A DNA stretch of 64,000 nt, taken from contig JABYQR010000134.1 of NCBI GenBank assembly GCA_022592445.1, positions 1 to 64,000 on the forward strand. Reading direction: 5' to 3'. Below the pieces are notes generated by a model, which was not told the DNA's origin, searched no databases, and saw only the letters and a program-made list of their open reading frames with translations. Positions 57,401 to 64,000 of the stretch are shown here, in pieces. The DNA is from Cytidiella melzeri (lineage: Eukaryota > Basidiomycota > Agaricomycetes > Polyporales > Irpicaceae). Every line of letters begins with the position of its first letter. The stretch's first letter is position 1. The position numbers were made by a program, and so were the translations under genes.

Positions 57401-58155
57401 TTGACTTGTTACGGCCGCAAAGATGCGCAATATTCTTGATCACGCTTTAGCCAGCGTGAGATTCAGCGACAGTATGGGCAGCTCCAATTTACTCACGCGT
57501 TCATGGTCTTGGTGAAGAGGACCTCATCTTCGTTGTACATGGTCATCACAATGAACAGCTCCGTGTGTCGGCCATGAAGGTAAGGTCGCAGCGAATACTT
57601 GGATCTCATGAAGTCGTCAGGATCGCATGTAGCAGCGGTGTACCTCATCCTGGACATCTCCTCCACATTTCCCATTCCTGACGGGACAATGTGGCTCGGG
57701 ACGGGCATTTCCAGTACCAAGTTACCCTGCTGAAGCTCTACCTGTCGTACGGACCTTCGCTTCATGAGCTTATCGCGTGCGTCCGACCACCCGTTGCTCG
57801 CTCCCCTCATCATCCCAGGTCGCTGCGTAGGCGCAAGGTGCTGTTGCTGTTGCGGCGGATACTGTTGATATAAAACTGTCGGCATAGGAGGGTTGCTAAT
57901 TTGTGACATCTCATGCTGGGGATTGAGGTGGACTTGAGAATCGGCGAACTCGCTGCGATAGGACTTGGTCGACTTGTTATCCCATGGCTCATGCTCTGCG
58001 TAATAGTCTTGATGAGGTTGAGTAACGTAGTCTTGAGGATTGTATCCCTGTCCCGGAGAGGCGATGTGCTGTGGCTGGTGCAGTGGTGGGTATGCTGGAT
58101 CATAGTAGTTGTTGTTCTGGTTGTTGTGGTAAGGAGAGTGCTGGTGATACGCCAT
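54409..58155 (-). CDS. Chitin synthase (division I, class I-III type)
   Basis: Processive membrane glycosyltransferase making cell-wall chitin from UDP-GlcNAc. The N-terminus is Gln/Tyr/Pro-rich ([20 protein letters not shown]). The chitin synthase N-terminal region follows ([20 protein letters not shown]). The catalytic domain reads [60 protein letters not shown] and [10 protein letters not shown], with the processive [20 protein letters not shown] motif near 56030. Several C-terminal membrane helices follow, ending [19 protein letters not shown] at 54409. About fourteen short introns. A Tc1 transposon lies 198 bp upstream of the ATG, so the native promoter is interrupted or displaced. Confidence 0.92.
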
Positions 58156-58352: not shown

Positions 58353-58388
58353 CAGTAGCGGCAAAAAGTCTTGCGACACCGCAAGCGC
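58353..58388 (+). repeat. Left terminal inverted repeat of the Tc1 element
   Basis: 36 bp identical to the inverted right end. Similarity continues imperfectly with a 2-nt gap to an inner shared block GTTTGAGCTCA, giving an imperfect repeat of about 65 bp. The inner block could be a second transposase-binding site. Confidence 0.92.
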
Positions 58389-58663
58389 ACAACTCTTTGC
58401 TCTCCGTTTGAGCTCAACACTGCTTATTATATTCAATCATTTTTTTTCACATTGAGTATTGCATGTATAGAATATTTTTACAATGAAATCAAAAGAGTCT
58501 TCCTCGTATATAATACATTGTGCACAATCCGCGCTGTCGCGACGCTAGGCGCCCGTCACGCGCACGACCACTATTTGGGTTTGTTTTGTTTTTCGATCTC
58601 TCCACTTCACCACTATCGTGCTTTTTTCAATACCACCCACTCTCCCAACTCTAGACCACACAT

Positions 58664-59680
58664 ATGGTGCAGTGTACCCCTACTAAAAAGGCCCAAATTT
58701 GGACTCTGCATAATGAAGGTGTCAGTGTGCCTGACATTCGCAAGAAAGTCCCCGTCCACTGGTCCACCATCTATTGCACCATCCAAAACCTAATCCACAA
58801 TCCTGACTTCTGTGCAAACAAACCCAAGACAGGTTGCCCTTGCATTCTACAAGACTGCGATCTCCGTCACGCCTCTTTACTCCTGGCACGACAAGAGGCC
58901 CGCAACGCTACGGACGTGCAGCGCAAGGCAATCCCACAAGTGGCTGCCCAAACAATGCGTCACAACCTTGCAGAGATTGGGCTGAAGGGATATGTGCGTC
59001 GACAAAAGCCGTTTCTGTCTGTAGCTCATAAGAAGAAGCGCAAGTGGTGGGCTGGACATGCGACCAGATGGGGGCAGAAAGAGTGGGGGGTAATGGTGTT
59101 CTCAGATGAGTCCAAATTTAATTTATTTGGCTCAGATGGGAGGGAATACTGCCGAAGAAGACAGGGCGAGGAGTTTTTGGACTGGAATGTGCAGAAGACA
59201 GTGAAGCACGGGGGTGGGAGTATCATGGTGTGGGGATGCATCACTTTGAAGGGAAAAGGAAGGCTACACCGCATTGATGGGAAGATGGATGCAAAGCTTT
59301 ACTGCTCCATCCTATCAGAGTCTCTTCTGGGCACATTGACAGACCAAGATTTGACCTGCCAACAGATCATTTTCCAACAGGACAATGATCCAAAGCACAC
59401 GTCAAAGCTTGCTACAGCTTGGTTCAAGGAGAACAAGATCACTGTATTGCCCTGGCCTCCAAATTCACCAGATATGAATATTCTGGAGAATGTCTGGGAC
59501 CATCTAGACCACAAATTACAGGCTTGCAAGCAGCAACCGTTGAATAAGGAGGAGTTGTGGGAGGCATTGCAGGAGGAGTGGGCAAATTTGGATGATGAGT
59601 ATATCAAGGGATTGTATGAGTCTCTCCCCACTCGTGCAACAGAGCTTATGCGGGCAAAGGGGTCCTATACTAGGTACTAA
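58664..59680 (+). CDS. Tc1-type DD34E transposase, 338 residues
   Basis: Cut-and-paste DDE transposase. The N-terminal helix-turn-helix region (KKAQIWTLHNEGVSVPDIRK and VHWSTIYCTI) is followed by a second DNA-binding part ending near GLKGYVRRQKPFLS. Catalytic residues are D148 (FSDESKF), D240 (FQQDNDPKHTS) and E275 (MNILENVWDHL); 34 residues lie between D240 and E275, the DD34E spacing of Tc1 proper. GGGSIMVWGC and PWPPNSPDMN are typical family motifs. The frame has no intron, stop or frameshift, and the length is normal, so the enzyme may be active. Confidence 0.95.
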   Translation: MVQCTPTKKAQIWTLHNEGVSVPDIRKKVPVHWSTIYCTIQNLIHNPDFCANKPKTGCPCILQDCDLRHASLLLARQEARNATDVQRKAIPQVAAQTMRHNLAEIGLKGYVRRQKPFLSVAHKKKRKWWAGHATRWGQKEWGVMVFSDESKFNLFGSDGREYCRRRQGEEFLDWNVQKTVKHGGGSIMVWGCITLKGKGRLHRIDGKMDAKLYCSILSESLLGTLTDQDLTCQQIIFQQDNDPKHTSKLATAWFKENKITVLPWPPNSPDMNILENVWDHLDHKLQACKQQPLNKEELWEALQEEWANLDDEYIKGLYESLPTRATELMRAKGSYTRY

Positions 59681-59920
59681 TTTTACCAGAATTTTTTGAC
59701 AAATTTTTACATAGAATAGTCAAGAAGATGTGCAATAGTAGTAGTGTAACATGTCGGCGCCTAATACATTTTTTGCGCGGATTGTACGTAGTTCCTCGCG
59801 CACAACGTCGATCAGCCTTTTTTTACTAAAGACACAATTTTTACATCATAATGAATGTGTGAGAACTGTAACCCAAAACTATATGCAAAAAATGAGCTCA
59901 AACGATGAGAAAAATTGTGC

Positions 59921-59956
59921 GCGCTTGCGGTGTCGCAAGACTTTTTGCCGCTACTG
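59921..59956 (-). repeat. Right terminal inverted repeat of the Tc1 element
   Basis: Reverse complement of the left end over 36 bp, ending GCCGCTACTG before the TA at 59957-59958. Confidence 0.92.
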
Positions 59957-60654: not shown

Positions 60655-61012
60655 ATGTCCAGCTATGGCTGGGGTGCAGTGGGGTAAGTCTTTGCCACTT
60701 GTCAGTTTCAACTCTGTTGCTGATTTATTCCCGGCCTTGCGAGCAGAATCCCGAATATACCTGCGGGAGGGCTATTGGACTACCTTCGGGATAACTCTGT
60801 GGGCACGGGTGTAAATTCATCTGAGGTAAAGTGCTCACGCAGATGACTCAAGCAGTAGACTTACCCAGTTAGCAGGACAACCGTACTGTTTTCCCTTTGC
60901 CCAATACACACCTCGCACTGACATGGATAGTCCAACAGAGACCGGATTTTTCCAACAATGTCACAAGTTTACAGCCTTAGGCGCCTATCTAGAGCGCTTA
61001 TTTTCCGGCTAG
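60655..61012 (+). CDS. Candidate small spliced gene (83 residues), ends next to the LTR element
   Basis: Not recognised. Three exons, 60655-60683, 60747-60825 and 60869-61012, join in frame through canonical sites: donor GTAAGT with acceptor GAGCAG, then donor GTAAAG with acceptor ACCCAG. They give MSSYGWGAVGIPNIPAGGLL, DYLRDNSVGTGVNSSELAGQ, PYCFPFAQYTPRTDMDSPTE and TGFFQQCHKFTALGAYLERL, ending FSG. The composition looks protein-like. The stop is only 3 bp before the putative LTR start at 61016. It may be a short gene, or the 5' part of a longer one cut by the retrotransposon. Confidence 0.4.
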
Positions 61013-61124
61013 GAGTGTTACCGGACCTAACCCTAACCCAGGTCACGTGACATCCTGCCTTATTTATCAATAGTCCAGACCCAAACCCTAGACTCAATCT
61101 GGAGCGGTTCCAGATCAACCTAGG

Positions 61125-61373
61125 CTATTGTTCTATTGTTCAACTTCCATTGATAGGGATTCCCCAGGGATTTCCCAGGGATTCCCCCAGGTCTTATTGT
61201 TCTATTGTCTTTCGACTATTGTCTTCTATCTATTGTTAGGGATTCCCCAGGGATTCCCCCAGTTTCTATTGTTCTATTGTTCTATTGTTCTAGCTCTATT
61301 GTTCTACGTACCCTGGTCCTTGACAGTTACTCAGGTCCTTGACAGTTACCCTGATCCCTTATTGTTCTATTGT
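61125..61373 (+). repeat. Short tandem and interspersed repeats in the putative U3
   Basis: TATTGTTC units recur at about 61126-61141, 61186-61208, 61266-61305 and 61359-61373. GGGATTCCCCAGG-type blocks recur between 61158 and 61261. A 16-bp unit (GGTCCTTGACAGTTAC) repeats exactly at 61315-61330 and 61334-61349. Confidence 0.85.
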
Positions 61374-61439
61374 TACTCCAGCCCCACAGTTACTCCAGTC
61401 CCTAGTGTGGGAACTGGTGCACAGACCACCCAGACACAG

Positions 61440-61447
61440 TATATATA
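61440..61447 (+). promoter_or_regulatory. Putative TATA box of the retrotransposon
   Basis: TATATATA followed by a pyrimidine-rich stretch, placed just downstream of the repeat array. Transcription would be expected to begin about 25-40 nt later, upstream of the splice-donor-like site at 61505. Confidence 0.55.
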
Positions 61448-61483
61448 GTACCCCTTACCCTCCCTGGTTCTGCATCTTGACCT

Positions 61484-61565
61484 CTTCGTCATTTGCACTG
61501 CCAGGTGAGTTACTCAATGTAACCTAGTATTAGTCTGATATTAACTTCGTCATTTGCACTGCCAG
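61484..61565 (+). repeat. Exact 21-bp direct repeats bordering an intron-like segment
   Basis: The 21 bp ending in TTTGCACTGCCAG occur at 61484-61504 and again at 61545-61565. The first copy is followed directly by GTGAGT (donor consensus). The second ends in CCAG (acceptor consensus) after a TTAAC branch-like site, so 61505-61565 reads as a 61-nt intron. It contains the ATGTAA at 61517-61522. Confidence 0.7.
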
Positions 61566-61866
61566 TATCCGGCCTCAGAGCCTGCTTGCCTGCTCATCAT
61601 CGACTTTGACCTCGTTGTCGTCGTTGGAGATCCACCTCCCTTCCTCTCTACTACACTCCCTTTTTAGGGTTATCAGCATAGCAGCAGTCGCTCCGCGACA
61701 TTAGGTCAAGATACCACACAGCTACCGGCACGACTGCCCTTAGCTCGGATCAAGCCTTCCTGTCCCCCCAGTTTTAAAAAGTTTAGTCCCCCCTACGTTT
61801 GAGAGTAAGCCATCGCCGTCCGTCTTGACGTGCTTAATCGCTAACTCGTTCACTTTCCGTGGTTGA

Positions 61867-62631
61867 TTCTTAGTGCCGAAAGAATCCCACTCCCGTTTCA
61901 CCGCTCGTCCAGATCCTTTGCACAAGGATCTGAATCAAGCACGTCGAGAAGTCCAGATCCATCGCGCCTTACCTCAGGCGGTGTTTGATCAACTCGACGC
62001 AGAGCACGCACGTGGCCAGAGTCACAAATACACGGAGAAGGAACTCAAGGCTGTTGCCTCCTACGTCGGTCGTTGTAAACCCAAGGGTTCTGCCCTCACA
62101 CACAGATTTCCCACAGCAGAGGAGTTTGAAAAACTCCGCGCCGAGTCCAAAGAGTTTGCCGCCCGCACCGCACGCGAACGAGCACAGGCTCTAGCAGATC
62201 TTCCTAAGAAACCCTCATTAGCAGAACGCTTCACAGCCCGGCCTACTACCAATCCTAGCGCGGCCCTCATAGCAGCAAAGCCGACTCTCATCGACTTCCG
62301 TAAGCACACTCCAGAAGACCTTCGAGGCATCTTCACCCCAAAGCTCACCGCCACACTCCAACGCTTGTCGATTCTCCCCACCATCGACAAATACCACCAG
62401 CTTCACAAAGACACGAAGCTTCATTTCGAGCAGGTGAAACAGAAGTTAGAAAAGCTTTTGGAAGAGCTACCAACCCGAGCCTTTGTCATCACTCATCGTG
62501 AGTGGCAGCTGCTGGATTGGGGATTAAAGGCAATTGGGAGAATTAGTTTTACGGGTCTAAGAAGAAATTACGAACAGGTGTTCAAAGCTTTAGACAACGT
62601 TTGGGCAGACGAGTACTTCATCTCGTTCTAG
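61867..62631 (+). CDS. Methionine-free leader ORF upstream of gag (no ATG)
   Basis: Open frame of about 254 codons from after TGA (61864-61866) to TAG (62629-62631), with not one Met codon. The product looks like a real soluble helical protein: HKDLNQARREVQIHRALPQA, FDQLDAEHARGQSHKYTEKE, LKAVASYVGRCKPKG, TAEEFEKLRAESKEFAARTA, TLIDFRKHTPEDLRGIFTPK and ITHREWQLLDWGLKAIGRIS. It matches no family I know. Its start is unclear: GTG at 61873, CTG at 61930 (purine at -3) or a spliced upstream start are options, as 61871-61873 is also a good 3' splice site with a CTAAC upstream. The frame is the same as gag. Confidence 0.55.
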   Translation, partial: FLVPKESHSRFTARPDPLHKDLNQARREVQIHRALPQAVFDQLDAEHARGQSHKYTEKELKAVASYVGRCKPKGSALTHRFPTAEEFEKLRAESKEFAARTARERAQALADLPKKPSLAERFTARPTTNPSAALIAAKPTLIDFRKHTPEDLRGIFTPKLTATLQRLSILPTIDKYHQLHKDTKLHFEQVKQKLEKLLEELPTRAFVITHREWQLLDWGLKAIGRISFTGLRRNYEQVFKALDNVWADEYFISF

Positions 62632-62946
62632 GTAGAATACAGGGTGGCTTCCCAAAGTCCTGAGAGTAGCATTTGGTCTAGAGATCATCTTCCCTGCGAA
62701 AATTATCCACACGCCTTCAACCAACAAACCCTCAGAGACGAGTGTTACGACTCAGACGAAGGACATCAAGTTTGTGAAGTACAACTGTGTCCCAATCGCT
62801 ACAACAGAATAGAATATCCTGGTCGTTACGCAAACCAGTATCGACCCATCCATCACTGGCAAGAAAGTCGCATTCTTGAATCTCTCCCACCTCTGCCCGA
62901 ACCTGAAGAAGACTTTGATCGAACCTTCACGCAGGAACAGTATCAG

Positions 62947-64000
62947 ATGGACTCCACCAACGTTTCCCAGCATGCATCCAGCGTGCCCACCCCAGCCCCT
63001 GTACAAGAGCCATCGTCTCCTCCTTCTGCAGAACAATTGCTGCAAGCCCTGCTCCTTGGTCAGCAACAGCTGACACAAGCCATCACAGCGCTGATTCAGA
63101 ATCAGCAACCGGTCAACAACCGATCAAGGGAAAGGGTTGTGGAAAAACCTGCCAGTTTCAAAGGCAATGCTAGCAGCGATGCACGCCGCTTCTTAGCAGC
63201 CTTTTCCATGTACGCACAATTCAACGAGAAGCTGTCTCCGTACAATGCCCAAGGTGGTCAGACCCGGTTGGACCACCTCTGGATCTCATCAGCCCTGTCA
63301 TTCATGACAGAAGATGCAGCAGTTTGGGCTACGCCCCACATGGACCTGATTGCTAGTCATCAGGCAGCCTTCAACGGTGACTGGGACGACTTTAGAACTG
63401 CGTTTAAAGCACGATTTGAGCCGGTCGATGAAATGGTAGACGCTAAAGCCAAGCTCAGGGAGCTATGGCAAGGCAAGAAAACGGTTCCGGAGTACACGGC
63501 TCGATTCAGGGAGATTATGGATAGGACTGGCTACTCGACACAAGACCTTCGTGATCGGTACTACGAACACCTGAGTACTACCATCAAGGATGAACTGGTT
63601 CACACCGCAAGGCCACACGTCACTCTCGTAGATCTGATCAATGTTGCTACCGACATTGACAATCGTCTTCGTGTTCGAGCTCAAGAGAAAGCTCGTGAAC
63701 AAGGTCGAACGGTCCCCAATCTGTTCAAAACCACACCGGTCTCCACCTCGTCCCCAGCTCCCTTTGTCCAAGCACCTTGTGACTCCAATGCCATGGAAAT
63801 CGATGCTACCAAAGTAGGACCCAACGGAAAAACACGCGCCGACTTCATGAAGGCCATGAACGGCAGATGTTACGGATGCGGATCAAAGGATCACCAAAAG
63901 AAGGATGGAAAACACGATTGTGAACTGTGCGGACATTGTGGTGGCAACCATCAGACGCAAGTTTGCCAAAGCTGGTTCCTTGGATACCCACCCAGGCAAC
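62947..64000 (+). CDS. Retrotransposon Gag, 3' end outside window
   Basis: First ATG after the ATG-free leader. The frame is also open upstream, from 62632 to 62946 (105 codons, no Met). The N-terminus is Pro/Gln-rich (EQLLQALLLGQQQLTQAITA). A retrotransposon gag domain follows: KPASFKGNASSDARRFLAAF, DDFRTAFKARFEPVDEMVDA, KAKLRELWQGKKTVPEYTAR and FREIMDRTGYSTQDLRDRYY. Near the window end are Cys/His knuckles, CYGCGSKDH and CGHCGGNHQTQVC (C-x2-C-x3-H-x4-C). No stop up to 64000. The gag start context has C at -3 and G at +4, only moderate. Confidence 0.85.
   Translation, partial: MDSTNVSQHASSVPTPAPVQEPSSPPSAEQLLQALLLGQQQLTQAITALIQNQQPVNNRSRERVVEKPASFKGNASSDARRFLAAFSMYAQFNEKLSPYNAQGGQTRLDHLWISSALSFMTEDAAVWATPHMDLIASHQAAFNGDWDDFRTAFKARFEPVDEMVDAKAKLRELWQGKKTVPEYTARFREIMDRTGYSTQDLRDRYYEHLSTTIKDELVHTARPHVTLVDLINVATDIDNRLRVRAQEKAREQGRTVPNLFKTTPVSTSSPAPFVQAPCDSNAMEIDATKVGPNGKTRADFMKAMNGRCYGCGSKDHQKKDGKHDCELCGHCGGNHQTQVCQSWFLGYPPRQ

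Follow-up and report, generated by a model that had tools for sequence, protein, structure and literature searches.

Retroelements must keep a single RNA both translatable and copyable, and a locus in the basidiomycete Cytidiella melzeri raises the question of why one of them should be free of ATG, on one strand only, over the 1.4 kb ahead of gag. The window (the whole stretch of DNA analysed, 64,000 nucleotides of contig JABYQR010000134.1) has a plus-strand ATG at 61517 and the next at 62947, with none between by exact count. In the ATG-free stretch so delimited (61520..62946, plus strand), ATG is the sole absent triplet of the 64, while CAT occurs 22 times; the zero and the 22 reported in an earlier note on this DNA are therefore exact. 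Dinucleotide frequencies predict 10.1 ATGs in this interval and single-base frequencies 18.2, and among 2000 dinucleotide shuffles the number of ATGs ranged from 2 to 19 (mean 10.1), zero never being reached. Chance absence is thus excluded in practice, as the note had held, but its estimate of e^-20 is too strong in view of the dinucleotide expectation and the range of the shuffles.

The element and the copies of its leader

The ATG-free stretch is part of the leader of a 7.9-kb element whose 5' LTR (60919..61700, plus strand) begins with TG and ends with CA, directly behind the target site duplication CGCAC (60914-60918); both the LTR ends and the duplication were read in the sequence. The 3' LTR lies beyond the window (contig C40:68028-68796), and the two LTRs match at 98.1%. 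The pol frame of this copy is broken, with Pfam matches to protease, RT, RNase H, integrase and a chromodomain distributed over four separate open pieces. These matches identify the element as a Ty3/gypsy chromovirus, in keeping with its TG...CA LTRs, its short duplication and a pol domain order in which integrase comes after RNase H, together with the chromodomain. The U3 part of the LTR (61125-61402) abounds in short CTATTGTT and AGGGATTCCCC repeats.

Past the leader, gag runs on the plus strand from its first AUG (MDSTN...) at 62947 to 64000 and beyond the end of the window, with a Pfam match to Retrotrans_gag (PF03732, 7e-13). In three other copies (L013, L016 and L022) the end of gag overlaps with a long pol frame in -1 register (..GATTTTTAG), where a -1 frameshift is possible. 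Beside two more (L006 and L007) there is a second gag part, at 89%, in opposite orientation and at equal distance from the main copy (C513:13319-14431 and C219:27097-28209), which suggests one duplicated arrangement.

A search of the host assembly (49.7 Mb, 731 contigs) with the leader and gag found at least 51 places; as only the best 40 of 737 candidates were scored, these copy counts are lower bounds. The family-1 alignment consists of 30 copies, the window copy and 29 others, with identity down to 88%. ATG is absent from 61566-62946 in 22 of the 30 and occurs once or more in the remaining 8. Ten positions carry ATG in some family-1 copy, and six of the ten read ACG in the window, from which the change to ATG is a common form of decay. 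Of the 184 sites that are one step from ATG, 2 have gained it in at least two copies, the figure for CTG, GTG and TTG combined being 58 of 468 (Fisher P 5e-7, kinship of copies ignored); gains of ACG, a triplet lost by the same decay, are equally low (2 of 181 one-step sites). Among nine further family-1 loci (the ninth, L048, is described below), L055, L056, L057 and L059 have no ATG from intron 1 (see below) to the gag AUG, and L058, L060, L061 and L062 have 3, 1, 2 and 8, respectively. In family 2, a second and abundant family, seven of the 12 measured leaders (1062-1274 nt; a thirteenth, L045, is outside the count) lack ATG, and ATGs other than the assembled one described below occur once each in L037, L044 and L047 and twice in L046. 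The absence of ATG is thus kept in those 22 copies and recurs as the same desert in a second family, whereas several ATGs, which the earlier note had named as the finding that would tell against it, are seen in a few decayed copies, with a maximum of eight in L062. Selection against AUG in the leader, as proposed there, is real.

Two coding stretches and a predicted split start codon

Over the 30 copies, variable sites are distributed by codon position as 22/20/22 in 61566-61866 (a non-coding pattern), as 42/18/108 in 61867-62628 (ORF0) and as 22/10/63 in 62632-62946 (segment X). In ORF0, 90 codons vary only synonymously and 46 change the amino acid, shifted frames giving the opposite; in X the numbers are 44 and 28, against 4/67 and 7/63 in the other frames. 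The ORF0 stop (62629-62631, plus strand) is always a stop although its type varies (TAG in 13, TAA in 11 and TGA in 6 of the 30), an exchange that shows that stopping matters. The codon-position patterns and the conserved stop between them therefore define two coding stretches, ORF0 and then X continuing into gag; the single long protein-like open frame of the earlier note is coding, as was thought, but is divided in two. Stops or frame changes occur in ORF0 or X of some copies, as expected for old copies.

Read from its assembled AUG, ORF0 (61874..62631, plus strand) encodes 252 amino acids and has 19 homologues at 32-40% identity. It has no Pfam match at E <=0.01 (two weak hints at E 0.03 fall far below the cut-off) and no sequence match in the PDB; its predicted structure is mostly helical (mean pLDDT 71.7), and the model has no fold match at E <=0.001 in the PDB or BFVD. 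Searches of viral contigs, prokaryotic genome contigs and plasmids gave no relatives. The product lacks the marks of an Env, given that it precedes gag and has no Pfam, PDB or fold match, and it is most likely an accessory protein of the element. The rice LTR retrotransposon Retrosat2 also has an extra ORF of unknown function named ORF0 (PMC3485330); it is a plant element with LTRs over 3 kb, and the likeness is by name and description only.

The start codon of ORF0 is predicted to be split (61804..61875, plus strand), with A61804 joined to T61874 and G61875 by removal of a 69-nt intron, intron 2 (61805..61873, plus strand; GTAAGC ... CTRAC ... TTCTTAG), which is predicted from its signals and is missing, to the nucleotide, from L048 and seven family-2 copies. 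Across the predicted intron, GAG A / TG CCG AAA would be joined as GAG ATG CCG AAA. The donor GAGA/GTAAGC and the acceptor TTCTTAG/TG are kept in all 30 aligned copies, TTCTTAG resembling a fungal acceptor, and the branch reads CTAAC in 23 of them and CTGAC in 7. In their general appearance the predicted introns are fungal. The junction CGTTTGAGATGCCGAAAGAATC was predicted from the window first and then sought in the 49.7-Mb assembly at up to 3 mismatches; it occurs at one place, in C591, with 0 mismatches, in a copy whose alignment lacks exactly the 69 nt of 61805-61873. The unspliced family-1 donor site is found at 153 places. The leader of L048 contains the assembled ATG and one other.

Family 2, whose ORF0 is 39-42% identical to that of the window (seven loci compared), has the same split codon. 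One family-2 copy, L036, reads ..TTTGACGATGCCTAAGG, where other copies have the intron between A and TG, and the assembled ATG is the only one in its leader. L036 was the first family-2 intron-less copy seen, and its junction was then used as a search pattern: at up to 3 mismatches it gave 8 places, of which seven (L036 included) are true junctions and the eighth, with 3 mismatches, has no ATG. Unspliced family-2 donors number 296 at up to 2 mismatches (10 in a reversed-pattern control). In all seven intron-less copies the boundaries are exact, and as any two of them have 23-45 mismatches over some 260 bases, apart from L050 and L051 (4), several separate intron losses are likely. At the DNA level the assembled AUG is present in eight exact intron-less copies from two families, and from these copies and the splice signals we infer that intron 2 is spliced. 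Gene finders would miss a protein of this type, since genomic DNA does not contain its start codon in one piece.

Segment X (62632..62946, plus strand), recognized by its codon-position variation, extends over 105 codons from the ORF0 stop onwards, in frame with gag, and has no AUG. It was found in at least 150 places scored among 377 candidates in the host assembly, and for the first 200 residues of the X-gag frame no homologue was found in the protein database at E <=0.001 among 376 candidates. In family 2, gag starts with MDPNQ..., matching MDSTN at 62947 of the window, at the first AUG past ORF0 in 12 of 13 loci (not found in L045); the distance from the ORF0 stop to this AUG is 41-123 nt in the 12 loci, in differing frames, and X therefore looks like an addition of family 1. 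A splice removing the ORF0 stop in frame was sought by eye near 62578-62642 and none was seen, AG at the stop being absent from copies with TAA or TGA. A second splice-assembled AUG, for X, was likewise rejected after a few AG/TG sites had been checked by eye, the frames being unfit.

A putative splicing switch and its alternatives

The absence of ATG, the coding evolution of ORF0 and X, the conserved splice signals and the exact intron-less copies in two families can be read directly from the DNA. The interpretation that we favour, with a probability of roughly 0.7, is that the leader acts as a splicing switch, in which removal of intron 2 would assemble the only usable AUG and give ORF0, and unspliced RNA would give Gag from 62947. 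In unspliced RNA the sole AUG ahead of Gag would be an AUG-UAA within intron 1, a predicted intron in the LTR, and ribosomes could scan about 1.4 kb to reach 62947. In RNA without introns 1 and 2 the leader ATG at 61517 (followed by TAA) would have been removed together with intron 1, leaving a single leader AUG, with G at -3, to start ORF0. One transcript would in this way yield either ORF0 or Gag by partial splicing, and the need to scan the unspliced RNA would forbid AUG even in the frame of ORF0 itself. It is this avoidance within ORF0 that points to scanning, since a Met codon would be harmless in a translated ORF and harmful on a scanned RNA. Partial splicing, scanning over ~1.4 kb to Gag and scanning as the cause of the ban on AUG are what we infer from the sequence, and scanning of the leader towards gag, which the earlier note had suggested, is the best reading of it. 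Which of the two proteins is made would seem to depend on a start codon that splicing alone brings into being, at the apparent cost of avoiding AUG over 1.4 kb, even in a protein's own codons.

Several points stand against the splicing switch. Eight of the 30 copies have one or more ATGs, and decayed copies such as L062 (8) have more. X is coding without an AUG, and the switch alone does not express it; nor does it account for the in-frame position of X, which the exchange of ORF0 stops leaves unexplained. If scanning of spliced RNA were leaky, unspliced RNA would be unneeded for Gag. Copies without intron 2 are also few.

It is hardly credible that base composition and choice of amino acids have emptied the stretch of ATG as a side effect. 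In 5000 synonymous shuffles per segment with amino acids fixed, the ORF0 part (61867-62628) is expected to have 2.7 ATGs and has zero in 1.9%, a chance that gives this view what support it has; the corresponding figures for X (62632-62946) are 4.1 and 0.12%. For the whole interval, however, none of the 2000 shuffles gave zero, the avoidance is one-sided (CAT being present 22 times), and the desert recurs in a family whose ORF0 is only 40% identical. Methionine is itself nearly absent from the homologues, with 3 internal Met in 4529 residues of the 19, a scarcity that does not amount to 19 independent tests since 13 of them look like one close group; in the window there is none in the ORF0 frame past its start or in X, against 9 in 351 gag codons. 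A start of ORF0 in unspliced RNA, with no intron, at the conserved GTG at 61873 or at another non-AUG codon is improbable too. GTG is present at 61873-61875 in all 30 aligned copies and protein-database gene calls start many homologues at V, but other homologues begin M-P, two families include copies that lack exactly the intron and read ATG across the join, and such a start gives no reason to keep the donor and branch signals. Most homologues begin MPK, MPA or VPR; M-P-K opens the assembled frame, V-P-K is read in the window (..TTCTTAG TG CCG AAA) and FLVPR in the homologue P0007. The aligned homologue starts sit some residues further in than the assembled start because the N-terminal stretch varies in length, and we take them as a lead to the M-P-K start and not as proof. 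The non-AUG start earlier considered for the long open frame thus gives way to an AUG split by the predicted 69-nt intron and whole in the intron-less copies.

Two further alternatives concern Gag. Spliced RNA could be its source, through leaky scanning or reinitiation downstream of ORF0, with unspliced RNA serving as genome only; this we consider unlikely, although ORF0 ends 41-123 nt ahead of the gag AUG in the 12 family-2 loci and leaky scanning would likewise forbid AUGs within ORF0. With G at -3, the assembled AUG should arrest the majority of scanning ribosomes, and reinitiation would not forbid Met in ORF0, from which it is nevertheless absent. We are more doubtful still about a longer Gag with X as its N-terminal part, reached via GTG 62644 or by readthrough of the ORF0 stop, a product that the AUG-free leader would mainly serve. 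The glyco-Gag of murine leukaemia virus is an extended Gag with a non-AUG start, and X resembles it in being an in-frame coding extension ahead of the Gag AUG for which a non-AUG start is possible; unlike glyco-Gag, X follows the conserved stop of another ORF, and its start is a candidate only. That candidate, GTG at 62644..62646 (plus strand), with A at -3 and G at +4, is present in 33 of 33 copies and has this context in the 30 tallied. Coding constraint on X in the gag frame also favours the extension, as does the keeping of the frame in a subfamily (L055-L057) with a 3-nt deletion after the stop. All three stops and several following triplets occur, however, unlike a fixed readthrough signal, and the 12 family-2 loci without X still have the same desert, so that X cannot be its general reason. 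A non-AUG start in the manner of glyco-Gag, as the earlier note envisaged, is thus possible for X and unsupported for ORF0.

The splicing switch has partial counterparts in other elements. In Drosophila endogenous retroviruses of the springer subclade (Ty3/gypsy), the env exon is described as spliced 'from an AU dinucleotide' (PMC12992720), which appears to complete an AUG, so that another Ty3/gypsy element apparently builds a start codon by splicing. There, however, it is the env exon; here the ORF lies ahead of gag, the intron is of 69 nt, the codon is split as A/UG and the leader is cleared of AUG. In BARE1 and copia, splicing gives rise to RNAs with distinct products from a single transcript (PMC3735527); there it leaves a Gag-only RNA, whereas here it would make the start codon of a pre-gag protein. 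A literature search, the coverage of which left out most subscription journals, found no fungal LTR element with a splice-made start codon, and the pre-gag place, the short intron, the accompanying AUG-free leader and the LTR intron with its repeat are apparently undescribed.

A predicted intron within the LTR

From the sequence of the LTR promoter a TATA box is predicted at 61440..61447 (plus strand), and its distance, together with the self-primer pairing that begins there, predicts the RNA start at A61474. Nucleotides 1-10 of the predicted RNA (ATCTTGACCT, 61474..61483, plus strand) would be a self-primer, being a perfect 10-bp complement to a predicted primer-binding site (PBS) 2 nt past the LTR (AGGTCAAGAT, 61703..61712, plus strand). 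Primer and PBS pair perfectly over 10 nt in 55 of 57 cases from two families, only PBSs that differ from the expected string by at most one substitution being counted; in family 2, relative to family 1, a compensatory change has replaced T-A by C-G. Such complementarity is the sequence signature of Tf1-type self-priming, the predicted mode of priming here. In Tf1, Tf2 and Tj1 of fission yeasts the RNA 5' end is likewise complementary to a PBS beside the LTR (PMC4600332, PMC7175516); the pairing there is of 11 nt and not 10, and a predicted intron with a duplicated exon end directly behind the primer and repeat sets the present element apart.

Behind the primer, the rest of exon 1 is a 21-nt repeat (repeat a, 61484..61504, plus strand), followed by the predicted intron 1 (61505..61565, plus strand; 61 nt, GTGAGT...TTAAC...CAG), the last 21 nt of which (repeat b, 61545..61565, plus strand) are identical to repeat a. 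The sole leader ATG (61517-61519) is inside this predicted intron, with TAA directly after it. Among 60 matches, repeats a and b agree fully in 48, differ by one mismatch in 9 and by more in 3, among which L010 represents a failed match of the second repeat. The repeat sequence varies between and within families (seven strings, of three main types), and family 2 (for example, L037) has the same layout, with intron 1 again closing on a duplicate of the exon 1 end. Repeats a and b change together between families, as if one were copied onto the other each cycle. The 61 nt of intron 1 are missing in 4 of the 29 other copies (L008, L010, L012 and L017); recombination between repeats a and b could also delete them, for which reason intron 1 is less firm than intron 2.

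Tentatively, and at rather less than even odds, we propose that the leader contains two splicing devices, intron 2 choosing between ORF0 and Gag, and intron 1 in the LTR being restored at reverse transcription via the 21-nt repeat. On a spliced template, synthesis of strong-stop cDNA would stop precisely at that repeat, and the cDNA could pair with the second repeat of the 3' LTR, which would restore intron 1 and overwrite repeat b with repeat a. As a model, such strand transfer of strong-stop cDNA from spliced RNA would explain both ends of the repeat and the concerted change. Six of the eight copies without intron 2 keep intron 1 (L036, L048, L050, L051, L053 and L054), it is missing from L052, and L049 has a rearrangement at this place, a pattern that fits the restoration of intron 1 and would equally fit separate splicing of the two introns. 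If this restoration is true, a retroelement regenerates an intron every cycle, and the question of how an LTR element can splice within its own LTR and yet keep the intron is answered.

Upstream of the element, the window also contains a Tc1/mariner-like element at about 58360-59955, with inverted ends read by eye and an open transposase frame (58655-59677) with Pfam matches to DDE_3 and HTH; it lies directly upstream of a minus-strand ORF (57493-58155) that matches PF08407 (Chitin_synth_1N, the N-terminal part of chitin synthase).
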